Both the position numbers and the translations under genes were made by a program. From an uncultured Bacteroidota bacterium (GTDB taxonomy: Bacteria > Bacteroidota > Bacteroidia > Flavobacteriales > Flavobacteriaceae): a DNA stretch of 64,000 nt. Of the stretch, positions 1-11,344 are shown in pieces (the stretch's first letter is position 1; each line of letters begins with the position of its first letter). The notes beneath the pieces are model-generated. The model saw only the letters and a list, made by a program, of their open reading frames with translations, was not told the origin of the DNA and searched no databases. The stretch is taken from positions 1 through 64,000 of the forward strand of contig CACERG010000007.1 of the NCBI GenBank assembly GCA_902561795.1, read 5' to 3'.

Positions 1-45
1 TCCTTTTGATAGCACTATTTTTAAACACCTTGTCAAAAACTATTT

Positions 46-1047
46 GTTGAATTAGACTTATGGAACAGAACTACTACTGACTTACTTCTTACTGTACCAG
101 TTATCTATTCTGCCGGTGACGCAAGTGCTCCAGCAGTAAATATTGGTGAGATGTATAACGAGGGTATTGATTTCGGACTTACATATGATGATACTTTTGG
201 TGATCTTAACTTATCTATTACAGGAAACATTTCTACTTATAGAAATGAAATACTTGCTTTAGATGAATTTGCTACACCAATCTTTGGATCTAACAGAAGG
301 GTTCCTGCCTTAACTGTTACTCAAGTAGGTGATCCAATATCTTCACTATATGGATTTGAAGTGGAAGGTATCTTCCAATCTCAAGCTGAAGCTGATGCTC
401 ACGCGCCTTATGGTACAACAGGATATAATGCACCTGGTAAATTCAAGTACGCTGATGTTAACAATGATGGTGAGATTAATGATGATGACAGAACCGTTAT
501 CGGTAATCCACACCCAGACTTTACATATGGTATAAACTTGAGTTTAACTTATAAAAATATCAATTTGACTCTCTTTGGAAATGGAGTACAAGGAAACGAT
601 ATCTACAATTACGTAAGATACTTTGCTGACTTCAACACATTCCAAGGTAATAGATCTACAAGAGCACTTAACGATGCTTGGCAACCAAGCAACCCGTCAG
701 CTCCAAGATCACAATGGACAGCAGCAGACCCTGATGCTACGTCTCCTATTATGGATGCGAATGATCAGATTAGTAGTAGAACTTCTACTTATCTAATAGA
801 AGACGGTTCATATTTCAGATTGAGAAACGTACAACTTACTTATACTTTTAGTGACGCATTAAACGATACTCTAGGTATAAGTGGAGGAAACATATATTTC
901 CAAGGTCAAAATCTATTAACTGTCACGAACTATTCTGGTCTAAACCCAGAAATTCAGACAACTAATGATATTCAATTAGGATACGACGGAGGATTTATGC
1001 CGGTTTCACGAACACTGACTGTAGGATTGAATCTATCATTATTTTAA
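46..1047 (+). CDS. SusC/RagA-type TonB-dependent receptor, C-terminal part only
   Basis: This is the C-terminal portion of an outer-membrane SusC-family barrel, which imports oligomers handed over by a SusD lipoprotein using TonB energy. Recognisable family features are the WNRTTTDLLLTVPV stretch at the start, an NIGEMYNEGIDF segment, the DVNNDGEINDDDRTVIGNPHPDF calcium-like loop, and the terminal aromatic-ending strand (VGLNLSLF). The SusD gene follows after 19 nt, which supports the call. The frame is open back to nt 25, but in-frame stops occur at 7-12 and 22-24, and the residues before about nt 46 do not look like SusC. The 5' end is therefore either cut by a sequence junction or the gene is truncated. 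The plug and N-terminal domains are not in the window. The first internal ATG (151) is not a credible native start. Confidence 0.85.
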   Translation, partial: VELDLWNRTTTDLLLTVPVIYSAGDASAPAVNIGEMYNEGIDFGLTYDDTFGDLNLSITGNISTYRNEILALDEFATPIFGSNRRVPALTVTQVGDPISSLYGFEVEGIFQSQAEADAHAPYGTTGYNAPGKFKYADVNNDGEINDDDRTVIGNPHPDFTYGINLSLTYKNINLTLFGNGVQGNDIYNYVRYFADFNTFQGNRSTRALNDAWQPSNPSAPRSQWTAADPDATSPIMDANDQISSRTSTYLIEDGSYFRLRNVQLTYTFSDALNDTLGISGGNIYFQGQNLLTVTNYSGLNPEIQTTNDIQLGYDGGFMPVSRTLTVGLNLSLF

Positions 1048-1066
1048 TAATTAATTATTTTGTAAA

Positions 1067-2800
1067 ATGAAAAATTTGAAAAATCTATTTTTTGCTTCAC
1101 TAGCCATTGTAACTCTTACAGTTGCTTGTGATGAAGAATTTTTAACAAAAGAACCCCAGGCTTCACTTTCTGGACCAGCTTTAGCTAATTCTGATGGTGT
1201 TGAAGGGAAACTTGTCTCTGCTTACCGTACCCTTGCAGGTTACGGAATGAGTGGAGGAGGAACATGGTATTACTCTACCTGGTCCTGGATTTTTGGTGCA
1301 ATATCTTCTGATAATGCATTAAAAGGAACTGATGCTGGTGACCAGCCAGAGCACTCATTTATTGAGTCATATGACTTTAACACTTTTAATGTTCACAACC
1401 GCGATAAGTGGAGATCTGGATACTGGGGTGCTGCTAGAGCTAATGACGTTATAAATAGTGTAGCAGAAGCTGAAGACATTAGTGCGGCTAGAGCTGCAGA
1501 GATTGTCGGTGAAGCTAAATTCATTAGAGGGTGGCAACACTTTGAAATGCAGAAAATGTATAGAACTCCTAAGTACGTTAGTGAAGCTAACTTTAGCTTA
1601 GATGATCTAGAAGCTTCAAAAGTTCCTAATACAGGGAAGATTTGGGCTAACATTATCCAAGACTTTGCGGATGCTGCAGCTGCGCTTCCAGCAACTCAAG
1701 CAGAGGTAGGTAGAGCTACAAAATGGGCTGCATTAGCTTACCAAGCTAAAGCGTTAGTCTATAGTGGTGACTATACTTCAGCGCTCCCAATTTTGGAGAA
1801 TATTGTTAACAACGGACCATATACGCTTGTCGACAAATTTGAAGACAACTATTTGGTAGCTACTAGAAACAATTCAGAATCTATTTTTGAAATTCAGTAT
1901 GCTGTAAGTAGTGCTGACACCAATGCATCAAATGCTGAGATTGGTCTTGCACACCCATATATTGCTCCTTGGGGATGTTGTGGTTTCTTACAAGCACCTC
2001 AGGACTTAGTAGATTTCTTCCAAACGGATGCTAATGGTTTACCATTATTAGACGAATCTTGGAAAACTACTCATATTACTAATCCTACTGGAGCTAATAT
2101 AGGAGAGCCTATTGGAGACCCAAGAGTTGACCCAAGACTTGACCACACTGTTGGTCGTCCAGGACAACTGTTCAAAAATCACCACATCATGCAAGTTGAT
2201 TACATTCGTGACTTAACTTATGCAGGTCCATATTTTTCTAAAAAGCACATTGCTGAACCAGAAGGATTTGGTATTGGTGGATGGGGTAACCTTTCTGCAA
2301 ACAACTTTAGAATTATGCGTTTAGGACACGTTAAGCTTTGGTTAGCTGAAGCTTATGTTGAAGCTGGACGTCTAGAAGATGCTCGTGCCCAAATTAACGA
2401 CCTAAGAAGACGTGCTGCTAATCCAGCCGGCTTTAATCCAGGAGCAACACAGGGTGCAACTCGTGCAGACTACTCTTTAACAGGAGCACCTGGTGCTAAC
2501 TATGTTATTGGTGAGTATACTGCAGCTTGGACAGATCAAGCTGTTGCAAGAAAAGCTGTGCGTTATGAGACTAGACTTGAAACTGCCATGGAAGGAAATC
2601 GTTTCTTTGATTTACAAAGATGGGGTGTTCAATCTCAAGTTCTTAACGAATATCTATCTAGAGAATCACGTTACAGAATTTACCTTCAAGGTAAGTCCTT
2701 TACATCACCTAAAAACGAGTACTATCCAATTCCAACTTATGCAATTGATAGATCATTCTCAGAAGGTGAGCCAACTTTAACACAAGATCCTAACTACTAG
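1067..2800 (+). CDS. SusD/RagB-family outer-membrane lipoprotein
   Basis: This is the surface glycan- or nutrient-binding partner of the upstream SusC receptor. The 577-residue product starts with a lipoprotein signal peptide (lipobox LTVAC, mature protein starting CDEEF; acidic residues right after the Cys resemble the surface-export signal of Bacteroidota lipoproteins). The C-terminal SusD/RagB hallmark is present at residues 509-520 (E-x-NRFFDLQRWG), and the end matches the family pattern (NEYYPIP, then L-T-Q-D-P-N-Y). Length is normal for the family. Third-position C is frequent (aac, gac, ttc) compared with the genes that follow, which is consistent with high expression. The substrate cannot be inferred from the protein. 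A strong terminator follows directly. Confidence 0.95.
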   Translation: MKNLKNLFFASLAIVTLTVACDEEFLTKEPQASLSGPALANSDGVEGKLVSAYRTLAGYGMSGGGTWYYSTWSWIFGAISSDNALKGTDAGDQPEHSFIESYDFNTFNVHNRDKWRSGYWGAARANDVINSVAEAEDISAARAAEIVGEAKFIRGWQHFEMQKMYRTPKYVSEANFSLDDLEASKVPNTGKIWANIIQDFADAAAALPATQAEVGRATKWAALAYQAKALVYSGDYTSALPILENIVNNGPYTLVDKFEDNYLVATRNNSESIFEIQYAVSSADTNASNAEIGLAHPYIAPWGCCGFLQAPQDLVDFFQTDANGLPLLDESWKTTHITNPTGANIGEPIGDPRVDPRLDHTVGRPGQLFKNHHIMQVDYIRDLTYAGPYFSKKHIAEPEGFGIGGWGNLSANNFRIMRLGHVKLWLAEAYVEAGRLEDARAQINDLRRRAANPAGFNPGATQGATRADYSLTGAPGANYVIGEYTAAWTDQAVARKAVRYETRLETAMEGNRFFDLQRWGVQSQVLNEYLSRESRYRIYLQGKSFTSPKNEYYPIPTYAIDRSFSEGEPTLTQDPNY

Positions 2801-2823
2801 TAGTTAAATCTTTGAAAGTTCAA

Positions 2824-2858
2824 AACCGTGGAGTATATTTGCTCCGCGGTTTTTTTTT
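2824..2858 (+). terminator. Rho-independent terminator after susD
   Basis: A 10-bp stem (AACCGTGGAG pairing with CTCCGCGGTT, one G-T wobble) with an 8-nt loop is followed directly by an unbroken T run to 2858. It is the strongest terminator in the window. It ends only 5 nt before the ATG of the next gene, so that gene must rely on read-through or on a start site inside this element. Confidence 0.9.
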
Positions 2859-2863
2859 GATAT

Positions 2864-5800
2864 ATGATGAAAGGGAAATATTTATTAATCACACTAATTT
2901 TTTTAATCCAGTCCTGTTCAAAACAAAATAAGCTATTTGTTTTATTGAAATCAGAAAAAACAGGTATTGAATTCAACAATAAAATAACTGAAACAGATGA
3001 CTTTAATATACTTACGGATGAGTATATTTTTAATGGAGGAGGGGTTGCACTAGCTGACTTTAATAGGGACGGTTTACCAGATTTATTTTTTACCGGTAAT
3101 ATGGTATCAAATGAGCTTTATTTGAATAAAGGTCATTTAAAGTTTGAGAATGTGACTAATAGTGCAAAATTAAATTCAACTGGATTTTGGTCAACAGGAG
3201 CAACAGTTGTAGATATAAATTCAGACGGTTGGATGGATATTTACGTTTCCGGAGCCATGAATACAAATAATAGAAAAAATAGACTTTATGTAAATCAGGG
3301 ACTAAATAAAGAAAACATCCCTGTTTTCGAAGAACAAGCAGAAAAATTTGGAATTGATGATAACGGTAATACCATGGGGGCATGTTTCATTGATTATGAT
3401 AAAGATGGCGATTTAGATTTATATGTTCTAAACAATGAACAAAACGAGACTATCCCAACTAACTACAGAAAAAAAATAATTGATGGATCAGCACCTAGTA
3501 ATGACAAATTTTATAAGAATAACGGTGATGGGACTTTCAGTGATATAACTCTTGACGCAGGGATATTATTTGAGGGCTTTGGTTTAAGTGTTACGCCAGT
3601 TGACATAAATAAAGACCAATGGATCGATCTATACATAACAAATGATTATCTAACTAATGATCTTTTGTATGTAAATCAAAAAAACGGAAAATTTAAAAAT
3701 GAAATCCAAGACTACCTATCTCATCAAAGTAAATTTTCTATGGGCTCAGATGCCTCAGATTTTAATAATGATGGCTATACTGATTTAATTTCCCTCGATA
3801 TGCTAGGAGAAAGTCATGAGCGCCGAAAAACTACCATATCTAAAAGTTTTTTTTTCCAAAACGTATTAAACAAAAAATGGGACTATCAAGACCAGCATAT
3901 GCGCAATATGCTATTTAAAAATAATGGACCAAATCTTCCATTTTCAGAAATAGGACAATTTTCAGGGGTTTACCAAACAGATTGGAGTTGGTCACCACTT
4001 TTTGCTGACTTTGACTATGATGGAAATAGAGATTTGTTTATAACTAATGGATTCCCAAGAGATATAACTGATATGGACTTTGCAAATTACAGACTTAGCT
4101 ATGGAGCTTACACTCCGGTATCAACTCTTTTGGATTCCATACCTATAGTTAAAATACCTAATTATGCATACAAGAATAATGGTAACCTAACCTTTGAAGA
4201 TGTAAGTAAAAAATGGGGCTTAGGTATTTCCTCATTTTCCAACGGAGCTGTTTTTAGTGATCTTGATCTAGATGGAGATATAGACTACGTTGTAAATAAT
4301 ATAAATGATAAAGCATTTATTTTTGAAAATATTTTATCCCAACAAGAAAATCCTCCAAACTATTTACAAATTGGGCTTGAAGGAGATAAATTAAATCCAG
4401 ATGCTCTAGGAGCAAAAGTTGTTTTGCGCCTCTCAGATAATTCAATTCAATTTCAAGAGCAACAAATATCACGAGGTTATATGTCTTCTACCGATCCTGT
4501 AATGTATTTTGGACTTGGAAAACTAAAGGATGTAGTGTCTGTAGAAATTTTGTGGCCAAACGGACTTTTATCGAAAATTAATAATCCTGATATTAATAAA
4601 AGACTAACATTCAGTCAAAGCGAAGCGTTAGCTGTTAATTCTCTTATTTTTCCTTTTGTGGAAGAACAAAAACTTCTTCCTTACAAAGAGGTTTCTAGTA
4701 AATACAACATAAATTATTTTCATATCGAAAAAAACGTTCAGGACTTTTTTAAACAGCGTTTATTACCACACAAATTATCCCAAAATGGTCCGTGTATTGC
4801 AGTAGGTGATATAAATAGTGACGGTAATGAAGATTTTATAGTAGGTAGCTCAACAACATTTTCACCCAGGGTTTTTATACAAAGTGACAACAGTAAATTC
4901 ATTTCGAGGGATTTATTTCAAAAAGAACAAGAGAAAAAATATGAAGTTGAAAGTATGACTCTTTTTGATGCAGACCAAGATGGAGATCTTGACCTTTATC
5001 TTGTTTCCGGTGGTAACGAATATGACATTGGCTCTGAGTGGTACCAAGATAGATTGTTATTTAATGATGGCTTTGGAAATTTTGAAAATCAACAAAACAG
5101 ACTTCCAAAGATGCATGTTAATGGTTGCATTGTTAGACCAGCTGATTTTGATAATGATGGAGATTTGGATTTATTTGTTGGAGGACACAACAAACCTGGA
5201 GCTTATCCATTAGCTGATAATAATTTTTTATTAAGAAATAATAACGGTTTTTTTGAAGATGTTACGGATGTCACCATTCCTTCATTAGATTCGTTTGGTA
5301 TTCTAACAGATGCTTTATGGACTGATATCAACTGCGATAAGCGAAATGACATAATTCTTGTAGGAGAATATAGCCCTGTTACAATATTGTTAAATAAAGA
5401 AAAGGGTTTTGAAAAATTGGAATCAGAAACTCTTAAAGATACTCAGGGTCTTTGGAGGGCAATTGAGCAGGTTGACATTGACCAAGACGGAGATTTAGAT
5501 TATATTTTAGGAAATTTAGGAAAAAATAATATGCTATCTCTATCTCCAGAAACCCCAATGTATATATCAACTAAGGATGTAGATAAAAACGGTAGTGTTG
5601 ATCCCTTAATTTTTAATTCCCAACAAAATAGCAAGGGAGAATTAGATATTTATCCAATTCAATTTTGGGATAATCTAACCCAACAAAGTCCAATGTTTAG
5701 GCAAGAATTCAATTCGTATCATTCATTTTCAAAAGCTAACTTTGAATATTATAAAGAAAAAGGATTCATAGATAATGATAGTATTTTGATAGCTAAACAC

Positions 5801-6163
5801 AGTGAATCCAAATGGATTGAAAATTTGGGTGAAGGTAATTATAAACTTAATTCATTACCAGATTTACTCCAGTTAGGCCCCATAAATGATTTTCTTATTT
5901 TTGGCGCTGGTAATAAACGAAGAGTGTTTGTCGTAGGGAATGATTTTGGAGGTGCACCATTTGAAGGGAATACGGACGCATTACAAGGGACCATTTTATA
6001 TTTAGATGAAAATGAAGGAGAGAAAGTTGTAAGCGCGCAAGATTCAGGTTTTAATGTTTTTGGTGATGCTAGAGAGATTAAAAGTGTAAGGCTTAAGAAT
6101 GGTAAAATTTTGATTTTGGTAGCTCAAAATCAAAATAAACTGCTAGCATTTGAAGAGTTTTAG
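2864..6163 (+). CDS. FG-GAP/VCBS-repeat lipoprotein with ASPIC/UnbV domain
   Basis: This is a large (1099 aa) predicted outer-membrane lipoprotein (signal peptide with lipobox IQSC). It contains about thirteen calcium-loop repeats of the D-x-D/N-x-D-G-x-x-D type. About seven lie before residue 480 (for example DFNRDGLPD, DYDKDGDLD, DFNNDGYTD) and the rest between about 649 and 910 (for example DINSDGNED, DFDNDGDLD, DIDQDGDLD). Such repeats fold into integrin-alpha-like beta-propellers. Between them, at about residues 500-585, is an ASPIC/UnbV-type domain (LGAKVVLRL, FGLGKLKDV, ILWPNG). Proteins of this architecture are frequent beside SusCD pairs in marine Bacteroidota; their ligand is generally unknown. 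The start codon lies 5 nt after a terminator, and there is no recognisable Shine-Dalgarno sequence. Function as a surface binding or scaffolding protein is inference. Confidence 0.9.
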   Translation: MMKGKYLLITLIFLIQSCSKQNKLFVLLKSEKTGIEFNNKITETDDFNILTDEYIFNGGGVALADFNRDGLPDLFFTGNMVSNELYLNKGHLKFENVTNSAKLNSTGFWSTGATVVDINSDGWMDIYVSGAMNTNNRKNRLYVNQGLNKENIPVFEEQAEKFGIDDNGNTMGACFIDYDKDGDLDLYVLNNEQNETIPTNYRKKIIDGSAPSNDKFYKNNGDGTFSDITLDAGILFEGFGLSVTPVDINKDQWIDLYITNDYLTNDLLYVNQKNGKFKNEIQDYLSHQSKFSMGSDASDFNNDGYTDLISLDMLGESHERRKTTISKSFFFQNVLNKKWDYQDQHMRNMLFKNNGPNLPFSEIGQFSGVYQTDWSWSPLFADFDYDGNRDLFITNGFPRDITDMDFANYRLSYGAYTPVSTLLDSIPIVKIPNYAYKNNGNLTFEDVSKKWGLGISSFSNGAVFSDLDLDGDIDYVVNNINDKAFIFENILSQQENPPNYLQIGLEGDKLNPDALGAKVVLRLSDNSIQFQEQQISRGYMSSTDPVMYFGLGKLKDVVSVEILWPNGLLSKINNPDINKRLTFSQSEALAVNSLIFPFVEEQKLLPYKEVSSKYNINYFHIEKNVQDFFKQRLLPHKLSQNGPCIAVGDINSDGNEDFIVGSSTTFSPRVFIQSDNSKFISRDLFQKEQEKKYEVESMTLFDADQDGDLDLYLVSGGNEYDIGSEWYQDRLLFNDGFGNFENQQNRLPKMHVNGCIVRPADFDNDGDLDLFVGGHNKPGAYPLADNNFLLRNNNGFFEDVTDVTIPSLDSFGILTDALWTDINCDKRNDIILVGEYSPVTILLNKEKGFEKLESETLKDTQGLWRAIEQVDIDQDGDLDYILGNLGKNNMLSLSPETPMYISTKDVDKNGSVDPLIFNSQQNSKGELDIYPIQFWDNLTQQSPMFRQEFNSYHSFSKANFEYYKEKGFIDNDSILIAKHSESKWIENLGEGNYKLNSLPDLLQLGPINDFLIFGAGNKRRVFVVGNDFGGAPFEGNTDALQGTILYLDENEGEKVVSAQDSGFNVFGDAREIKSVRLKNGKILILVAQNQNKLLAFEEF

Positions 6164-6255
6164 TTTTTAAGGCCTAAAAAATATTATTTCACTATTACAT
6201 ATTCAATTTATTTGACTTAAATGTCCTATTTTTATCCCGCTATAATGTGTTGAAA

Positions 6256-6302
6256 ACTGAATTTTACTTTTGATCATTTTCATTAGTTGTTCTAAATTCA
6301 GT
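6256..6302 (+). promoter_or_regulatory. 9-bp inverted repeat in leader of the haloperoxidase-like gene
   Basis: ACTGAATTT (6256-6264) is perfectly complementary to AAATTCAGT (6294-6302), with a 29-nt loop. The 3' arm ends 12 nt before the ATG at 6315, where a ribosome would bind, so the hairpin could modulate translation. The upstream TATAAT (6241-6246) with TTGACT (6212-6217) 23 nt earlier is only a weak promoter candidate. Function is inferred. Confidence 0.35.
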
Positions 6303-6314
6303 AAGAATAAATGT

Positions 6315-7694
6315 ATGAGGAATCTTAGAGCTTTAATATTTTCAGTCTTATTTATCCAATTATCATGTAATCAACATGATAGTAGGGAATATATTCAAAA
6401 ATTAGATAATCCTGAATTATTCCAGTTTGCAATGCAAAATCTTACTGACATTGTAGTTTACGATATCTTTTCACCACCTGTTGCTTCAAGAGTCTACTTA
6501 TACCCAACAATAGCTGCATATGAGATAATCGCTGCGTATCAGCCTGAAAGCTTCAACAGCCTTGCAGGGCAGGTCAAAGATTTGAATGAAATTCCAAAAT
6601 CAGATAATAAGGCTATAATTCCAAACCTTGCTGCTCTATTTTCTTTTAATAGTGTTGGCAAAAAACTCATTTTTTCACAAGATAAAATGGAATCTTTTGA
6701 AAATGAATTCTATCAAAAATTAATTGAGTATAATGTTCCAAAAAAAGTAATAAAAGTTTCTAAAAATTATGGAGAAGAAGTAGCAGAATTTATTTTAGAA
6801 TGGGCTTCTAAAGATATGTATAGTCAAACCCGTACATTTCCAAAATATGCTATCAAAGAAGAAGATAAGTATTGGAAGCCAACTCCACCTGATTATATGG
6901 ATGGAATTGAACCTCATTGGCAAGAAATTAGAACTATGGTTTTAGATTCGTCAAACCAATTTCCCCCAAAAGACCCATTACCATTTAATTTAGAAAAAGA
7001 CAGTCCTTTTCATAAACAGTTGATGGAGGTTTTTAACGTTATAAATGGACTTACTGAAGAACAAGTAGAAATCGCAAAGTTTTGGGATTGTAATCCATAC
7101 GTAACTCATCATAAAGGACATTCTATGTTCGCTACAAAAAAGATCACACCTGGAGGACATTGGATTGGAATAACTTCTATAGCCACTAGAAAAGCAAAAA
7201 GTTCTTTTGCAGATACAATAAATGCATATGCTAATGTTTCTATTGCTTTGTTTGATGCATTTATAAGTTGTTGGGATGAAAAATGGAGAACTTTGGTAGT
7301 GCGACCAGAGACATTAATTAATGAACATTACGATGAGGAATGGCTACCATTATTACAAACCCCCCCATTCCCAGAATATACAAGTGGACACTCCGTAATT
7401 TCAAGAGCTGCAGCAGTAACTTTAACAAAAATCTACGGAGATAATTTCAATTTTGTAGATACTACAGAAATAGCTTATGGGCTTCCTCAGAGAAGCTATA
7501 AGTCTTTTATACATGCTTCTGAAGAGGCAGCGATATCAAGACTATACGGGGGTATTCACTATATGATGGCAATTACTGAAGGTGTTTCACAGGGCGAAAA
7601 AGTAGGGTCGTATATTGCTAGCAGATTAAAAACAAAAAAAACTTCTAATAGGGCATTAACTTTTAATACGACAACTGGTGAAAAAAAGCCTTAG
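6315..7694 (+). CDS. Vanadium-dependent haloperoxidase / PAP2-type lipoprotein
   Basis: This is a predicted lipid-anchored member of the vanadium haloperoxidase/acid phosphatase (PAP2-fold) superfamily. The ATG at 6315 gives a proper lipoprotein signal (lipobox QLSC) and 459 residues; an upstream in-frame codon at 6270 would spoil the signal peptide. The anion-pocket residues are all visible: K323 and R330 (KWRTLVVR), S357-G358-H359 in YTSGHS, and R409 and H415 in SRLYGGIHY. Family members either oxidise halides with peroxide when vanadate is bound or hydrolyse phosphate esters, and sequence alone does not separate the two. It lies 151 nt downstream of the ASPIC lipoprotein, and its end overlaps the MFS transporter by 17 nt, so the three probably act together. 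Confidence 0.85.
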   Translation: MRNLRALIFSVLFIQLSCNQHDSREYIQKLDNPELFQFAMQNLTDIVVYDIFSPPVASRVYLYPTIAAYEIIAAYQPESFNSLAGQVKDLNEIPKSDNKAIIPNLAALFSFNSVGKKLIFSQDKMESFENEFYQKLIEYNVPKKVIKVSKNYGEEVAEFILEWASKDMYSQTRTFPKYAIKEEDKYWKPTPPDYMDGIEPHWQEIRTMVLDSSNQFPPKDPLPFNLEKDSPFHKQLMEVFNVINGLTEEQVEIAKFWDCNPYVTHHKGHSMFATKKITPGGHWIGITSIATRKAKSSFADTINAYANVSIALFDAFISCWDEKWRTLVVRPETLINEHYDEEWLPLLQTPPFPEYTSGHSVISRAAAVTLTKIYGDNFNFVDTTEIAYGLPQRSYKSFIHASEEAAISRLYGGIHYMMAITEGVSQGEKVGSYIASRLKTKKTSNRALTFNTTTGEKKP

Positions 7695-9042
7695 TTTTTG
7701 GCAGATAATTACCATGAACTTTGGTTTTTTTGGGGTTCAATTTAGCTTTGGTTTGCAACAAAGTAATATGAGTGCAATTTATAGGTATTTGGGTGCAGAA
7801 GAATCTGAGTTACCTATTTTATGGCTAGCAGGTCCAGTTACAGGTCTTATTGTTCAGCCAATAATTGGAGCAATTAGTGATGGAACTTGGTCACCTAAAT
7901 TTGGTAGAAGAAAGCCTTTCTTTCTAATTGGAGCAATAATTGCAAGTTTAGCCTTAATTGCTATGCCTTACTCTAGTTCAATATGGATGGCTGCTAGTCT
8001 TTTATGGATTCTAGATGCTGCAAATAACATAGCTTTGGAACCGTATAGAGCTTTTATTTCTGATAAATTACCGAAAAAACAATTTTCATTTGGTTTTTTA
8101 GTTCAAAGTTTTTTCACTGGTCTAGGAACTACATTAGCCAATTTCACACCTGCTATTTTGGTTTCCTTTGGCATATTAGCGTTAACTGATAAAATGGGAA
8201 ATGGTATTCCCGTTTCAACTTATTGGGCTTTTTTAATTGGTGCTGCTGCATCCATTATAACTATTTTGATTACGGTCATTACAACCTCGGAATATCCTCC
8301 TACTTTAGAAGAGTTAAAAGAAATTCAATCTTCAAAAACAAATAAAAATTTATTAATAAAAACTTTCCAAGATATTATTTTTGCATTCAAAAACATGCCT
8401 GCAACTATGAAACAGTTAATACCGGTTATGTTTTTTCCTTGGTATGCAATGTTTTGCTATTGGCAATATTTAACTTCAGCTCTTTCACTCTCCTTATATG
8501 GTACCCTAGACGAAACAACTTCATTTTTCAATAAGGCACAACTTTTGACAGGTAATTTAAATGGCACTTACAATATTATTTGTTTTTCAATTGCTTTTGC
8601 ACTAATTCCAATTGCAAAAAAAATTGGACCCAAAAGATTACACTTTTTTAGCTTAGCTATTGGAGGATTTGGTCTTTTATGCATGCCGTTACTAAATGAC
8701 ACAGACATTTTATTTGTTTTGCCCTTTGGAAGTGGAATTGAAATTTCTCAAATATATCTTTTTTCCTTTTGTATGGGTATTACCTGGGCTTCCATGATGG
8801 CTATGCCTTATCAAATGTTAGCATCAACTATTCCAACAAATAAAATGGGAATTTATATGGGTATATTCAATATGTTTATCGTTATCCCAATGATTATTCA
8901 AATTTTTTCTGTTCAGTATATTGTTTATGATCTTTTAGGACAAAATCCAATAAATATTATACGCCTATCGGGCACCTTTCTTATTGTAGGAGGAATTTTT
9001 TCTTTATTTGTTAGCCAACCTGCGAAGGCAGATTCAATTTAA
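7678..9042 (+). CDS. MFS transporter, SLC45/GPH sugar-symporter-like
   Basis: A 454-residue inner-membrane protein with about twelve hydrophobic segments. After TM2 comes DGTWSPKFGRRKPF (GRRKPF at residues 76-81), the loop seen in SLC45/sucrose-symporter and GPH-type cation:sugar symporters. The start is GTG at 7678, inside the last codons of the upstream haloperoxidase-like gene (17-nt overlap), which implies translational coupling. A later ATG would remove TM1. In Bacteroidota PULs, transporters of this kind move the released mono- or disaccharide, or related small molecule, from the periplasm into the cytoplasm. The actual substrate here is unknown. Confidence 0.85.
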   Translation: MKKSLSFWQIITMNFGFFGVQFSFGLQQSNMSAIYRYLGAEESELPILWLAGPVTGLIVQPIIGAISDGTWSPKFGRRKPFFLIGAIIASLALIAMPYSSSIWMAASLLWILDAANNIALEPYRAFISDKLPKKQFSFGFLVQSFFTGLGTTLANFTPAILVSFGILALTDKMGNGIPVSTYWAFLIGAAASIITILITVITTSEYPPTLEELKEIQSSKTNKNLLIKTFQDIIFAFKNMPATMKQLIPVMFFPWYAMFCYWQYLTSALSLSLYGTLDETTSFFNKAQLLTGNLNGTYNIICFSIAFALIPIAKKIGPKRLHFFSLAIGGFGLLCMPLLNDTDILFVLPFGSGIEISQIYLFSFCMGITWASMMAMPYQMLASTIPTNKMGIYMGIFNMFIVIPMIIQIFSVQYIVYDLLGQNPINIIRLSGTFLIVGGIFSLFVSQPAKADSI

Positions 9043-9073
9043 TTGAGTAATTTCAGCATTATAATTTTAACTT

Positions 9074-11344
9074 ATGTCAAATCAGCAACATAGAAGGGCT
9101 GCTCTAGTTTATCATGCTAAACCTAGACCTGGAAAAACAAAAGTTGTTCCAACAAAAAATTATAATACTCAAAGGGACTTAGCATTGGCCTATTCCCCTG
9201 GTGTTGCTATTCCGTGTAATGAAATAGAAAAGCAAAAATCTGATGTTTACAAGTATACCAATAAAGGAAACTTGGTTGCTGTTATTACCAATGGTACTGC
9301 TGTTCTTGGACTAGGAGATATTGGTCCATGCGCCTCTAAACCTGTTATGGAGGGTAAAGCTTTACTTTTTAAAATTTTTGCAGGTATTGATGTTTTTGAC
9401 ATAGAATTAGACGCTAAAGATCCAGAAAAATTTATTGAAGCAGTTAAAGCTATTTCTCCAACATTTGGAGGAATAAATTTAGAAGATATTAGATCACCAG
9501 AAGCATTTGAAATTGAACGTAGGCTTAAGGAAGAACTTAATATTCCTGTTATGCACGACGATCAACATGGAACCGCTATCATTTCTGCTGCTGCTCTTTT
9601 AAATGCGCTAGAGCTTGCAGGTAAAAAGATTACAGATGTGAAAATTGTCGTTTCTGGAGCAGGTGCTGCAGCTATAGCATGTGCCAAACTATATGTTTCT
9701 TTTGGTGCAAGAACGAAAAATATTGTAATGTTGGATAGTAAGGGAGTGATTCAAAAAAATCGTGAAGACCTTACTCTAGAAAAAGCTCAATTTGCTACAA
9801 AACAAGACCTAAAAACATTGGAAGAGGCAATTGTTGGTGCCGACGTGTTTATTGGTTTGTCACAACCTAACATCCTTAAAAAAAAGATGCTTAAACAGAT
9901 GAATATTAATCCAATTGTTTTTGCAATGGCTAACCCAGATCCAGAAATTGGATATAATGATGCTTGTAATACACGAAATGACATTATTATGGCAACTGGT
10001 CGTTCAGACCATCCCAATCAGGTTAACAACGTACTTGGTTTTCCTTTCATTTTTAGAGGTGCTTTAGATGTAAAAGCAACTTCAATAAATGAAGAAATGA
10101 AGATGGCAGCAGTAAAGGCAATTGCTGATCTTGCAAAAGAGTCTGTTCCAGAGCAAGTAAACATAGCTTATGATGAAACAAGATTGAGTTTTGGTAGAGA
10201 CTATATTATACCTAAGCCTTTTGATCCCCGTTTAATTACAACTGTACCTCCTGCAGTTGCAAGAGCTGCGATGGAGTCAGGTGTAGCTACAGAACCAATA
10301 GAAAACTGGGAACGTTACAGGGAAAACTTAGAACAACGTCTAGGTAACACTCAAAAAATGATTCGATTGCTTCACGATCGTGCTAAATTAGCTCCTAAAC
10401 GCTTGGTTTTCGCTGAAGCAGACCAAATGGATGTTCTTAAGGCCGCTCAAATTGTTTTTGAAGAATCTATTGCCATACCTATATTATTAGGAAATAGAAA
10501 AAAAATTAAAGAATTGTGTGATCTTATTGAATTCAATGCAGATGTTGAAGTAATAGATCCCAAAGAAAACGAACAAAATAAGATTAGAAATAAATACGCT
10601 GAGCTTTTTTGGCATTCACAAAAAAGAAAAGGTTACACTTTGTACGATGCACAACGCTTAATGAGAGAGAGAAACTATTTTGCGTCTATGATGATAAAGA
10701 ATGGAGACGCAGATGCAATGATTTCAGGTTATTCTAGAAACTACAGATCAGTTGTTAAGCCTATATTAGAAACTATTCCAAAAAATAAAGGAGTCAGTCG
10801 TGTAGCTGCTGCAAATTTGATGTTAACAAAATCGGGACCATTGTTTTTAACAGATACAACAATTAATGTTGATCCATCATCAAAAGAATTAGCAAAAATC
10901 GCACAAATGACCGGACAAATGGCAAAAATTTTTGGATTAGAACCCGTGATAGGGATGCTTTCCTTTTCAAATTTTGGATCTTCACGCTTTCCACAGGCAA
11001 AAAAAGTTTCCAAAGCAGTAACTATGCTTCACAGAAGTAATCCAGACTTAATTGTTGATGGACCTATACAATCTGATTTTGCTCTAAATAAGAAACTTTT
11101 ACAAGACAGATTTCCATTTTCAAGTCTTACTAACAAAAAAGTAAATATTTTGGTTTTTCCAAATTTAGATGCAGCCAATATAACCTATAAGCTTATGAAA
11201 GAATTAAACGAAGCGCATTCGATAGGGCCAATTTTAATGGGTCTAAGTGAACCAATTCATATTTTGCAGTTAGGTGCTTCCGTGTCTGAAATCGTTAATA
11301 TGTCTGCTGTTGCAGTTGTGGATGCCCAAACAAAGAAAAAATAA
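9074..11344 (+). CDS. maeB: NADP-dependent malic enzyme with C-terminal phosphotransacetylase-like domain
   Basis: Catalyses oxidative decarboxylation of malate to pyruvate with NADPH production in the cytoplasm. The 756-residue length is typical of MaeB hybrids. The N-terminal malic domain contains SPGVAIPC, the metal/substrate motif HDDQHGT (161-167) and a Rossmann motif GAGAAA (about 195-200). From about residue 430 (LAPKRLVFAEADQ) a PTA-like domain follows; in characterised MaeB proteins it is catalytically inactive and serves regulation by acetyl-CoA. ruvA follows after 4 nt and sprA after another 4 nt, an arrangement I recognise from Flavobacteriia. Confidence 0.96.
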   Translation: MSNQQHRRAALVYHAKPRPGKTKVVPTKNYNTQRDLALAYSPGVAIPCNEIEKQKSDVYKYTNKGNLVAVITNGTAVLGLGDIGPCASKPVMEGKALLFKIFAGIDVFDIELDAKDPEKFIEAVKAISPTFGGINLEDIRSPEAFEIERRLKEELNIPVMHDDQHGTAIISAAALLNALELAGKKITDVKIVVSGAGAAAIACAKLYVSFGARTKNIVMLDSKGVIQKNREDLTLEKAQFATKQDLKTLEEAIVGADVFIGLSQPNILKKKMLKQMNINPIVFAMANPDPEIGYNDACNTRNDIIMATGRSDHPNQVNNVLGFPFIFRGALDVKATSINEEMKMAAVKAIADLAKESVPEQVNIAYDETRLSFGRDYIIPKPFDPRLITTVPPAVARAAMESGVATEPIENWERYRENLEQRLGNTQKMIRLLHDRAKLAPKRLVFAEADQMDVLKAAQIVFEESIAIPILLGNRKKIKELCDLIEFNADVEVIDPKENEQNKIRNKYAELFWHSQKRKGYTLYDAQRLMRERNYFASMMIKNGDADAMISGYSRNYRSVVKPILETIPKNKGVSRVAAANLMLTKSGPLFLTDTTINVDPSSKELAKIAQMTGQMAKIFGLEPVIGMLSFSNFGSSRFPQAKKVSKAVTMLHRSNPDLIVDGPIQSDFALNKKLLQDRFPFSSLTNKKVNILVFPNLDAANITYKLMKELNEAHSIGPILMGLSEPIHILQLGASVSEIVNMSAVAVVDAQTKKK

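Follow-up and report, generated by a model that had tools for sequence, protein, structure and literature searches.

The first 64,000 bases of contig C7 (G000:C7:1-64000, starting at base 1 of the contig) of the 1.73-Mb, 80.8% complete genome of a marine bacterium form the window analyzed here. Near its left end we found five genes on one strand (+), encoding SusC, SusD, an ASPIC lipoprotein, a vanadium haloperoxidase (VHPO) and an MFS transporter. They make up a variant uptake locus of the polysaccharide utilization locus (PUL) type with an enzyme of the iodoperoxidase kind, and its parts are all of known kinds. The grouping of VHPO with ASPIC and SusCD is real and widespread; since it recurs in relatives, a chance association is excluded. 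We lean towards the explanation that this is an uptake locus for a sugar of the sucrose, fructan or alpha-glucan class, equipped with a CRTAC1-like lipoprotein and a surface iodoperoxidase that would remove peroxide or produce hypohalite. The genes were named by Pfam/NCBIfam profile matches of the window proteins, which bore out all five parts listed in an earlier note on this DNA (SusC, SusD, ASPIC lipoprotein, PAP2/haloperoxidase lipoprotein and MFS).

The vanadium haloperoxidase

The VHPO gene (6315..7694, +) encodes a probable lipoprotein of the Zobellia VIPO1 type. In a phmmer search against the PDB, 4cit and 4usz were its top matches (E 4e-151, residues 12-439 of 459), with 52.8% identity to 4cit over 430 columns, and all remaining matches were at E 0.04 or worse, including a fungal chloroperoxidase at E 0.04. 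Zobellia is the source of 4USZ (PMC5064120). The ATG at 6315 is the start that is compatible with both a lipobox and the residue numbers of the earlier note, and counted from it the active-site residues named there (K323, R330, S357, H359, R409, H415) are exactly in place, as is G358. We take these seven to be the vanadate-binding residues. To follow them among relatives we aligned 140 VHPO rows, 134 of them distinct (the window, 138 locus sequences and 4cit). Part of these came from 80 named loci, the best 80 of 301 VHPO relatives, with flanks of at most 10 kb that were often ended by contig ends; two of the 80 were left out because the reading frame was shorter than 400 aa. All rows have the Lys, both Arg, the Ser, the Gly and the first His; the last His is kept in 139 rows, and the remaining row has a gap there. 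Tyr262, Trp320, Asp321 and Phe352, which we assume to be further VIPO1 pocket residues, are the same in the window VHPO and 4cit and are found in 131, 140, 130 and 140 rows, respectively. A loose lipobox pattern matched 122 of 139 VHPO N-termini. The protein thus resembles the Zobellia galactanivorans iodoperoxidase (4cit/4usz) in near full-length homology, at 53% identity, and in its active site, which places it by prediction among the VIPO1-type vanadium haloperoxidases, with iodide peroxidation as the predicted activity.

The third motif of PAP2 phosphatases is SRxxxxxHxxxD. The corresponding stretch of the window VHPO is SRLYGGIHYMMA, with Ala419 where the motif has Asp, and a haloperoxidase is far likelier than a phosphatase.

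Recurrence of the haloperoxidase with ASPIC and SusCD

We rejected the idea that the gene is unique to this genome, as VHPO relatives are numerous (301 in the named genomes, and 60 of 149 genomes in a second set). Among the 80 named loci, ASPIC was visible in 52 and lay directly upstream of VHPO in 42; an MFS gene came next in 37, and SusC/SusD, malic enzyme and LacI were seen in 26, 53 and 11. The second set consisted of 149 Flavobacteriaceae genomes drawn for the purpose, and at least six genomes are counted in both sets (six VHPO rows are identical). ASPIC was found in 114 of the 149, that is, in 60/60 VHPO-positive as against 54/89 VHPO-negative genomes (Fisher p 8e-10, uncorrected for kinship or habitat).

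We fetched regions for 60 of 64 VHPO matches and set aside two weak paralogues, the match in the window itself and one further place (G045). Neighbors were labeled by BLAST matches to references, with the families checked on examples. ASPIC was present in 56 regions, or 55 by stricter labels. The earlier note had asked for a neighborhood analysis of these families in other genomes. In 50/60 regions the first gene called 5' of VHPO, with matching strand, is ASPIC. Forty-five of these 50 genes overlap VHPO or stand no more than 22 nt away, with gene starts set mechanically at the first possible codon. L134 and L146 have 3.2 kb without a called gene in the gap, and an ASPIC match lies inside the gap of L134. 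SusC/SusD was seen in 42/60 regions as first fetched and in 48/60 after upstream extension.

One region, L131 of genome G001, encodes a VHPO 98.8% identical to 4cit, so this genome must be that of Z. galactanivorans or very near it. The gene order is SSS (a sodium/solute symporter gene on the opposite strand)-ASPIC-ASPIC-ASPIC-VHPO, with GH65-betaPGM-LacI and SusC-SusD further upstream. This gene has ASPIC neighbors, as in the window, but G001 has three ASPIC genes and the symporter where the window has a single ASPIC gene together with an MFS gene.

Other neighbors and settings were also recorded. A protein of about 300 aa with a GyrI-like small-molecule-binding domain is encoded 3' of VHPO at L159:7882-8781 and in 31 relatives (32 members, counted among the 60 VHPO regions), and a calcineurin-like phosphoesterase with an Omp85-like C-terminus is encoded downstream, on the opposite strand, in 17/60 regions (as at L134:16107-19808). 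Six loci (L050, L054, L056, L058, L066, L069) have VHPO in the setting PSD1/DUF1549-DUF1501-NHL-DUF2231 cytochrome-VHPO, with SusC after VHPO in five and ASPIC before it in three. The VHPO gene is also carried by records titled Rhodobacteraceae (L013, with a flavobacterial SusC-SusD-ASPIC-VHPO-MFS block) and Rickettsiales (L081), both of which are probably mis-binned or mislabeled contigs.

The ASPIC lipoprotein and the importer

The ASPIC/UnbV lipoprotein gene (2864..6163, +) encodes matches to PF13517 (FG-GAP_3) and PF07593 (UnbV_ASPIC, E 7e-18), and the only PDB sequence match of its product up to E 0.01 is 9etn (E 6.4e-18). An AlphaFold2 model made with 56 sequences (mean pLDDT 91.3, pTM 0.92) has two parts: residues 22-595 superpose on CRTAC1 9etn_A (Z 37.9, root-mean-square deviation 2.4, 462 residues aligned) and residues 604-1099 form a second propeller in the predicted structure. 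With its UnbV_ASPIC domain and CRTAC1 fold, the protein belongs to the ASPIC/CRTAC1 family. The fold of residues 22-595 is what it shares with animal CRTAC1 (9etn); the additional C-terminal propeller and the lipobox Cys are found on the bacterial side, and 90% or more of the 56 rows keep this Cys18. The earlier note had described a propeller of 13 repeats. Thirteen DxDxDG-like motifs are indeed found by a loose pattern, but 11 by a strict one, and the protein has two domains and not a single propeller. Fold matches of the second propeller (LGI1 EPTP, aldos-2-ulose dehydratase and a KICSTOR subunit; Z 26-30) reflect broad propeller likeness and were rejected as a clue to function. A separate lipoprotein (c9) of about 200 aa is encoded between ASPIC genes at L034:2864-3457 and in 32 relatives; its model has a pLDDT of 90, the one member searched had no Pfam match, and the best fold match (E 5.8e-3) is not convincing.

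The window contains the 3' part of susC (41..1047, +; TIGR04056 E 7.5e-64 on 151-1044), which is 98% identical to that of L002, a near-identical record (SCGC AAA795-G10) whose VHPO is 97% identical to the window's. The full-length SusC of L002 has 1064 aa (L002:1540-4734). Because susC is truncated in the window and its C-terminal part alone is encoded there, the protein stays under the TIGR04056 whole-protein cut-off. The best solved match of the L002 SusC is PDB 5t3r_D 'SusC homolog' (E 1.6e-152), and that of the window SusD lipoprotein (1067..2800, +; PF07980, SusD_RagB, E 7.6e-33) is PDB 5lx8 'SusD homolog' (E 3.5e-54); these are presumably the levan/fructo-oligosaccharide pair BT1762-63 of Bacteroides thetaiotaomicron. 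The adjacent susC-susD pair of a canonical PUL is thus present. In the window's own incomplete genome we found one PF07980 match, the locus SusD; the number in 16 other genomes ranged from 1 to 6.

The last gene of the locus (7678..9042, +) encodes an MFS_1 protein related to SUC1/SLC45, with plant SUC1 as its nearest solved relative (8bb6, E 9.3e-19). Its match to TIGR01301 (GPH_sucrose; E 2.8e-31) scored 108.9 bits, below the cut-off of 511, and we regard it on this basis as a predicted relative, not a member, of the sucrose/H+ symporter family. Close orthologues (at least 71%) occurred in 8/149 genomes, adjacent to VHPO in five and in a genome without a VHPO match in one. Between VHPO and malic enzyme in L015 there is a 90-aa MFS remnant (L015:11354-11626), which suggests loss of the MFS gene there.

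Sugar context of the locus

Thirty-two of the 60 regions were extended upstream; the choice was non-random and took 8 of the 18 regions without SusCD and 24 with SusC or SusD at the edge. SusC/SusD was seen in 30 of these extended loci, and a LacI gene was divergent from SusC in 27 (one unlabeled gene between them being allowed). Glycoside hydrolases (GHs) were found in 23, comprising GH65 with beta-PGM in 11, GH32 in 10 and GH13 in 13; SUC-like MFS, sugar-porter MFS, PfkB kinase and xylose isomerase genes were present in 12, 9, 7 and 7. After extension, 26/60 regions overall had a GH. The GH65-beta-PGM block of L125 lies on the far side of VHPO.

The intact insert of L002 reads RuvB-QueG | SusC-SusD-ASPIC-VHPO-MFS | malic enzyme-RuvA-SprA. 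It differs from a canonical PUL in having neither GH genes nor a locus regulator, with QueG directly 5' of susC. The earlier note had reported no GHs at the locus, and had held that GHs immediately upstream of susC would weaken its idea of a special system. Locally it was right, as the complete L002 locus has none and QueG occupies that place in this lineage; the claim does not extend to the stretches of the 23/32 relatives or to the lineage's other contigs. The proposed departure from classical PULs by lack of GHs is not supported in that form. Contig C12 of the window's own genome carries beta-PGM-GH65-GH13-GH13, the beta-PGM matching TIGR01990 above its cut-off, and a GH32 gene was found in 7/8 genomes searched, including the nearest records L002 and L039. 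In the L002 genome GH32 adjoins a sugar-porter MFS gene, a pair also met in relatives. Taken together, these findings indicate that the lineage's GHs are encoded elsewhere, and we rejected the idea that the organism had lost them.

The likeness to BT1762-63, presumably the best solved match of both SusC and SusD, extends to the GH32 sets next to the loci in 10/32 relatives; unlike that system, the L002 locus has ASPIC and VHPO in place of a GH. As described in the main texts of PMC6298971 and PMC6794258, alpha-glucan PULs of marine Flavobacteriia combine GH13, GH65 and SusCD. SusCD is shared with the present locus, and GH65, GH13, beta-PGM and LacI adjoin it in many relatives, whereas the CRTAC1-like ASPIC lipoproteins, the iodoperoxidase and the placement of the GH block on another contig set it apart. 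The terms ASPIC, FG-GAP and haloperoxidase are absent from those main texts, and no description of the SusCD-ASPIC-VHPO combination was found in the open-access literature searched.

Borders of the locus and the intergenic hairpin

Window positions 1..40, outside the locus, repeat a stretch near QueG in inverted form at 100% identity (L002:1217-1256, matched as 1256-1217), and positions 32-400 align to L002 susC. At its left end the contig is an inverted chimera. That end truncates susC, which can be read from about base 41, and this assembly or amplification chimera explains the odd start of the gene. The chimera is of a kind known from amplified single-cell DNA, which we infer to be its cause. 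Downstream of the MFS gene are malic enzyme, ruvA and sprA. The malic enzyme-phosphotransacetylase gene (9074..11344, +; PF00390/PF03949/PF01515) forms the right border of the insert and is outside the system. Successive gaps from susC to malic enzyme are 19, 63, 151, -17 and 31 bases, the VHPO and MFS genes sharing 17 bases. Promoter-like matches within 900-9200 were not above shuffles (28 vs mean 34).

Between susD and the ASPIC gene lies a terminator- or attenuator-like element (2822..2853, +), a 14-bp hairpin followed by a T run. Terminator-like sites in the whole scan were not above shuffles (4 vs mean 4.6). Across 12 sequences, 99.4% of cells were paired at the hairpin vs 39-62% when it was slid, and 7/14 pairs were altered on both sides, indicating strong covariation in relatives. 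The hairpin is also present in L190-L192 with no VHPO after it, and so belongs to the SusC-SusD-ASPIC block; it probably lowers expression of ASPIC, VHPO and MFS relative to SusCD.

Proposed function and alternatives

Under the explanation that we favor, SusC-SusD and the CRTAC1-like two-domain lipoprotein would bind an oligo- or disaccharide and take it up, possibly under LacI control in relatives. Textbook PULs encode SusE/F surface glycan-binding proteins at the place that the ASPIC lipoprotein occupies here. Transport over the inner membrane would fall to the SUC/SLC45-like MFS protein, and degradation to glycosidases and phosphorylases whose genes lie elsewhere in the lineage's genomes. 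The vanadium iodoperoxidase would ride along as a surface lipoprotein that oxidizes iodide, perhaps bromide, with peroxide; its most likely role would be to remove peroxide, or make hypohalite, at the feeding surface.

Several observations weigh against this explanation. No GH was seen in 9/32 extended loci, no LacI gene is in the L002 locus, and the window's own 80.8%-complete genome is alone among the eight searched in that GH32 was not found. Relatives also carry sets for different sugars, with trehalase or with xylose isomerase and a xylulokinase-like kinase; the context thus does not single out one sugar. The co-conservation that the earlier note made a test of its idea holds in that SusCD, ASPIC and VHPO recur together in many genomes, but 28/80 named loci, some on short contigs, have no visible ASPIC. 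In L009, L010 and L022, VHPO occupies the QueG-malic enzyme site with no ASPIC beside it; an orthologous SusC (82-84%)-SusD (82-83%)-ASPIC (62-64%) block is found at another place, where the 18-19 kb read contain no VHPO. On a FastTree tree of VHPO, absence of ASPIC is scattered (26/135 labeled rows, 18 changes, of which at least 16 are forced by well-supported branches; shuffles mean 24), a count inflated where the contig stops before the expected ASPIC place (L054, L056, L069). The conserved hairpin, in turn, divides susCD from ASPIC-VHPO. VHPO and SusCD-ASPIC are not strictly co-inherited. An ASPIC gene was found in 17/20 genomes searched, namely L002 and 16 of 19 with VHPO but no adjacent ASPIC; the SusD-ASPIC pair of L015 is a distant one (34%, 39%), and the short ASPIC reading frames of L016 and L017 (108 and 236 aa), scored as ASPIC on the tree, look as if they are decaying.

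The three genomes with SusC-SusD-ASPIC apart from VHPO, the loci in which VHPO lacks ASPIC, and the hairpin would suit a VHPO that is a linked passenger, doing an independent job (peroxide stress, competition or iodide metabolism) beside a SusCD-ASPIC-MFS sugar importer. We consider this somewhat unlikely, given the close ASPIC-VHPO spacing in most of the 60 regions and the presence of ASPIC in all 60 VHPO-positive genomes of the second set. It seems improbable that the locus is instead a sugar-fuelled iodine unit, in which sugar oxidation gives peroxide, VHPO makes HOI and iodine enters, with a calcium-binding ASPIC scaffold. This idea draws on Arenibacter C-21, whose iodine uptake requires glucose, oxygen and calcium and which encodes five or more VIPO homologues (PMC5064120), and on the VIPO1-type region, where ASPIC genes have LacI-SusCD further upstream. 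We know of no SusCD that carries iodine, which counts against it, and no sugar-oxidase was among the recurrent neighbor families named, though no search was aimed at one.

A third view would have VHPO halogenate, dehalogenate or oxidatively cut a ligand before SusCD takes it up. Enzyme and importer genes adjoin in most cases (SusC/SusD in 48/60 regions), but VHPOs in general are believed to give off freely diffusing HOX, with restricted access described for the Zobellia enzyme (both in PMC11871015), and the catabolic neighbors are ordinary GHs; we hold such ligand modification to be very improbable. Least credible to us is a PAP2-type phosphatase acting on a surface ligand ahead of its import, the dephosphorylation option of the earlier note. 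Apo-haloperoxidases can have weak phosphatase activity, the protein does match PF01569, and some relatives encode a sub-cut-off Phytase-like/SdiA-regulated protein downstream (19/60 regions) or the metallophosphoesterase-Omp85 protein mentioned above, neither of them in the window's locus. The near full-length homology to 4cit and the complete, conserved VIPO1 active site, together with Ala and not Asp after the third-motif His, make dephosphorylation much less likely, and a pure PAP2 phosphatase was rejected as the principal explanation.

Significance

The biochemistry of Zobellia-type bacterial iodoperoxidases is known, but to our knowledge no physiological role has been settled for them. 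The finding of their genes beside ASPIC in LacI-flanked sugar loci of many genera makes that role testable, and the grouping suggests that ASPIC/CRTAC1-like proteins may partner SusCD at the surface. A bolder proposal, which we regard as unlikely, is that feeding and halide oxidation are coupled in a type of sugar locus widespread among marine Bacteroidota: ASPIC would replace SusE/F and hold the iodoperoxidase at the SusCD gate, and a sugar read by LacI would trigger iodide oxidation. If true, sugar use would be linked to marine iodine cycling, and the coupling would explain the sugar-, oxygen- and calcium-dependent accumulation of iodine in marine flavobacteria.

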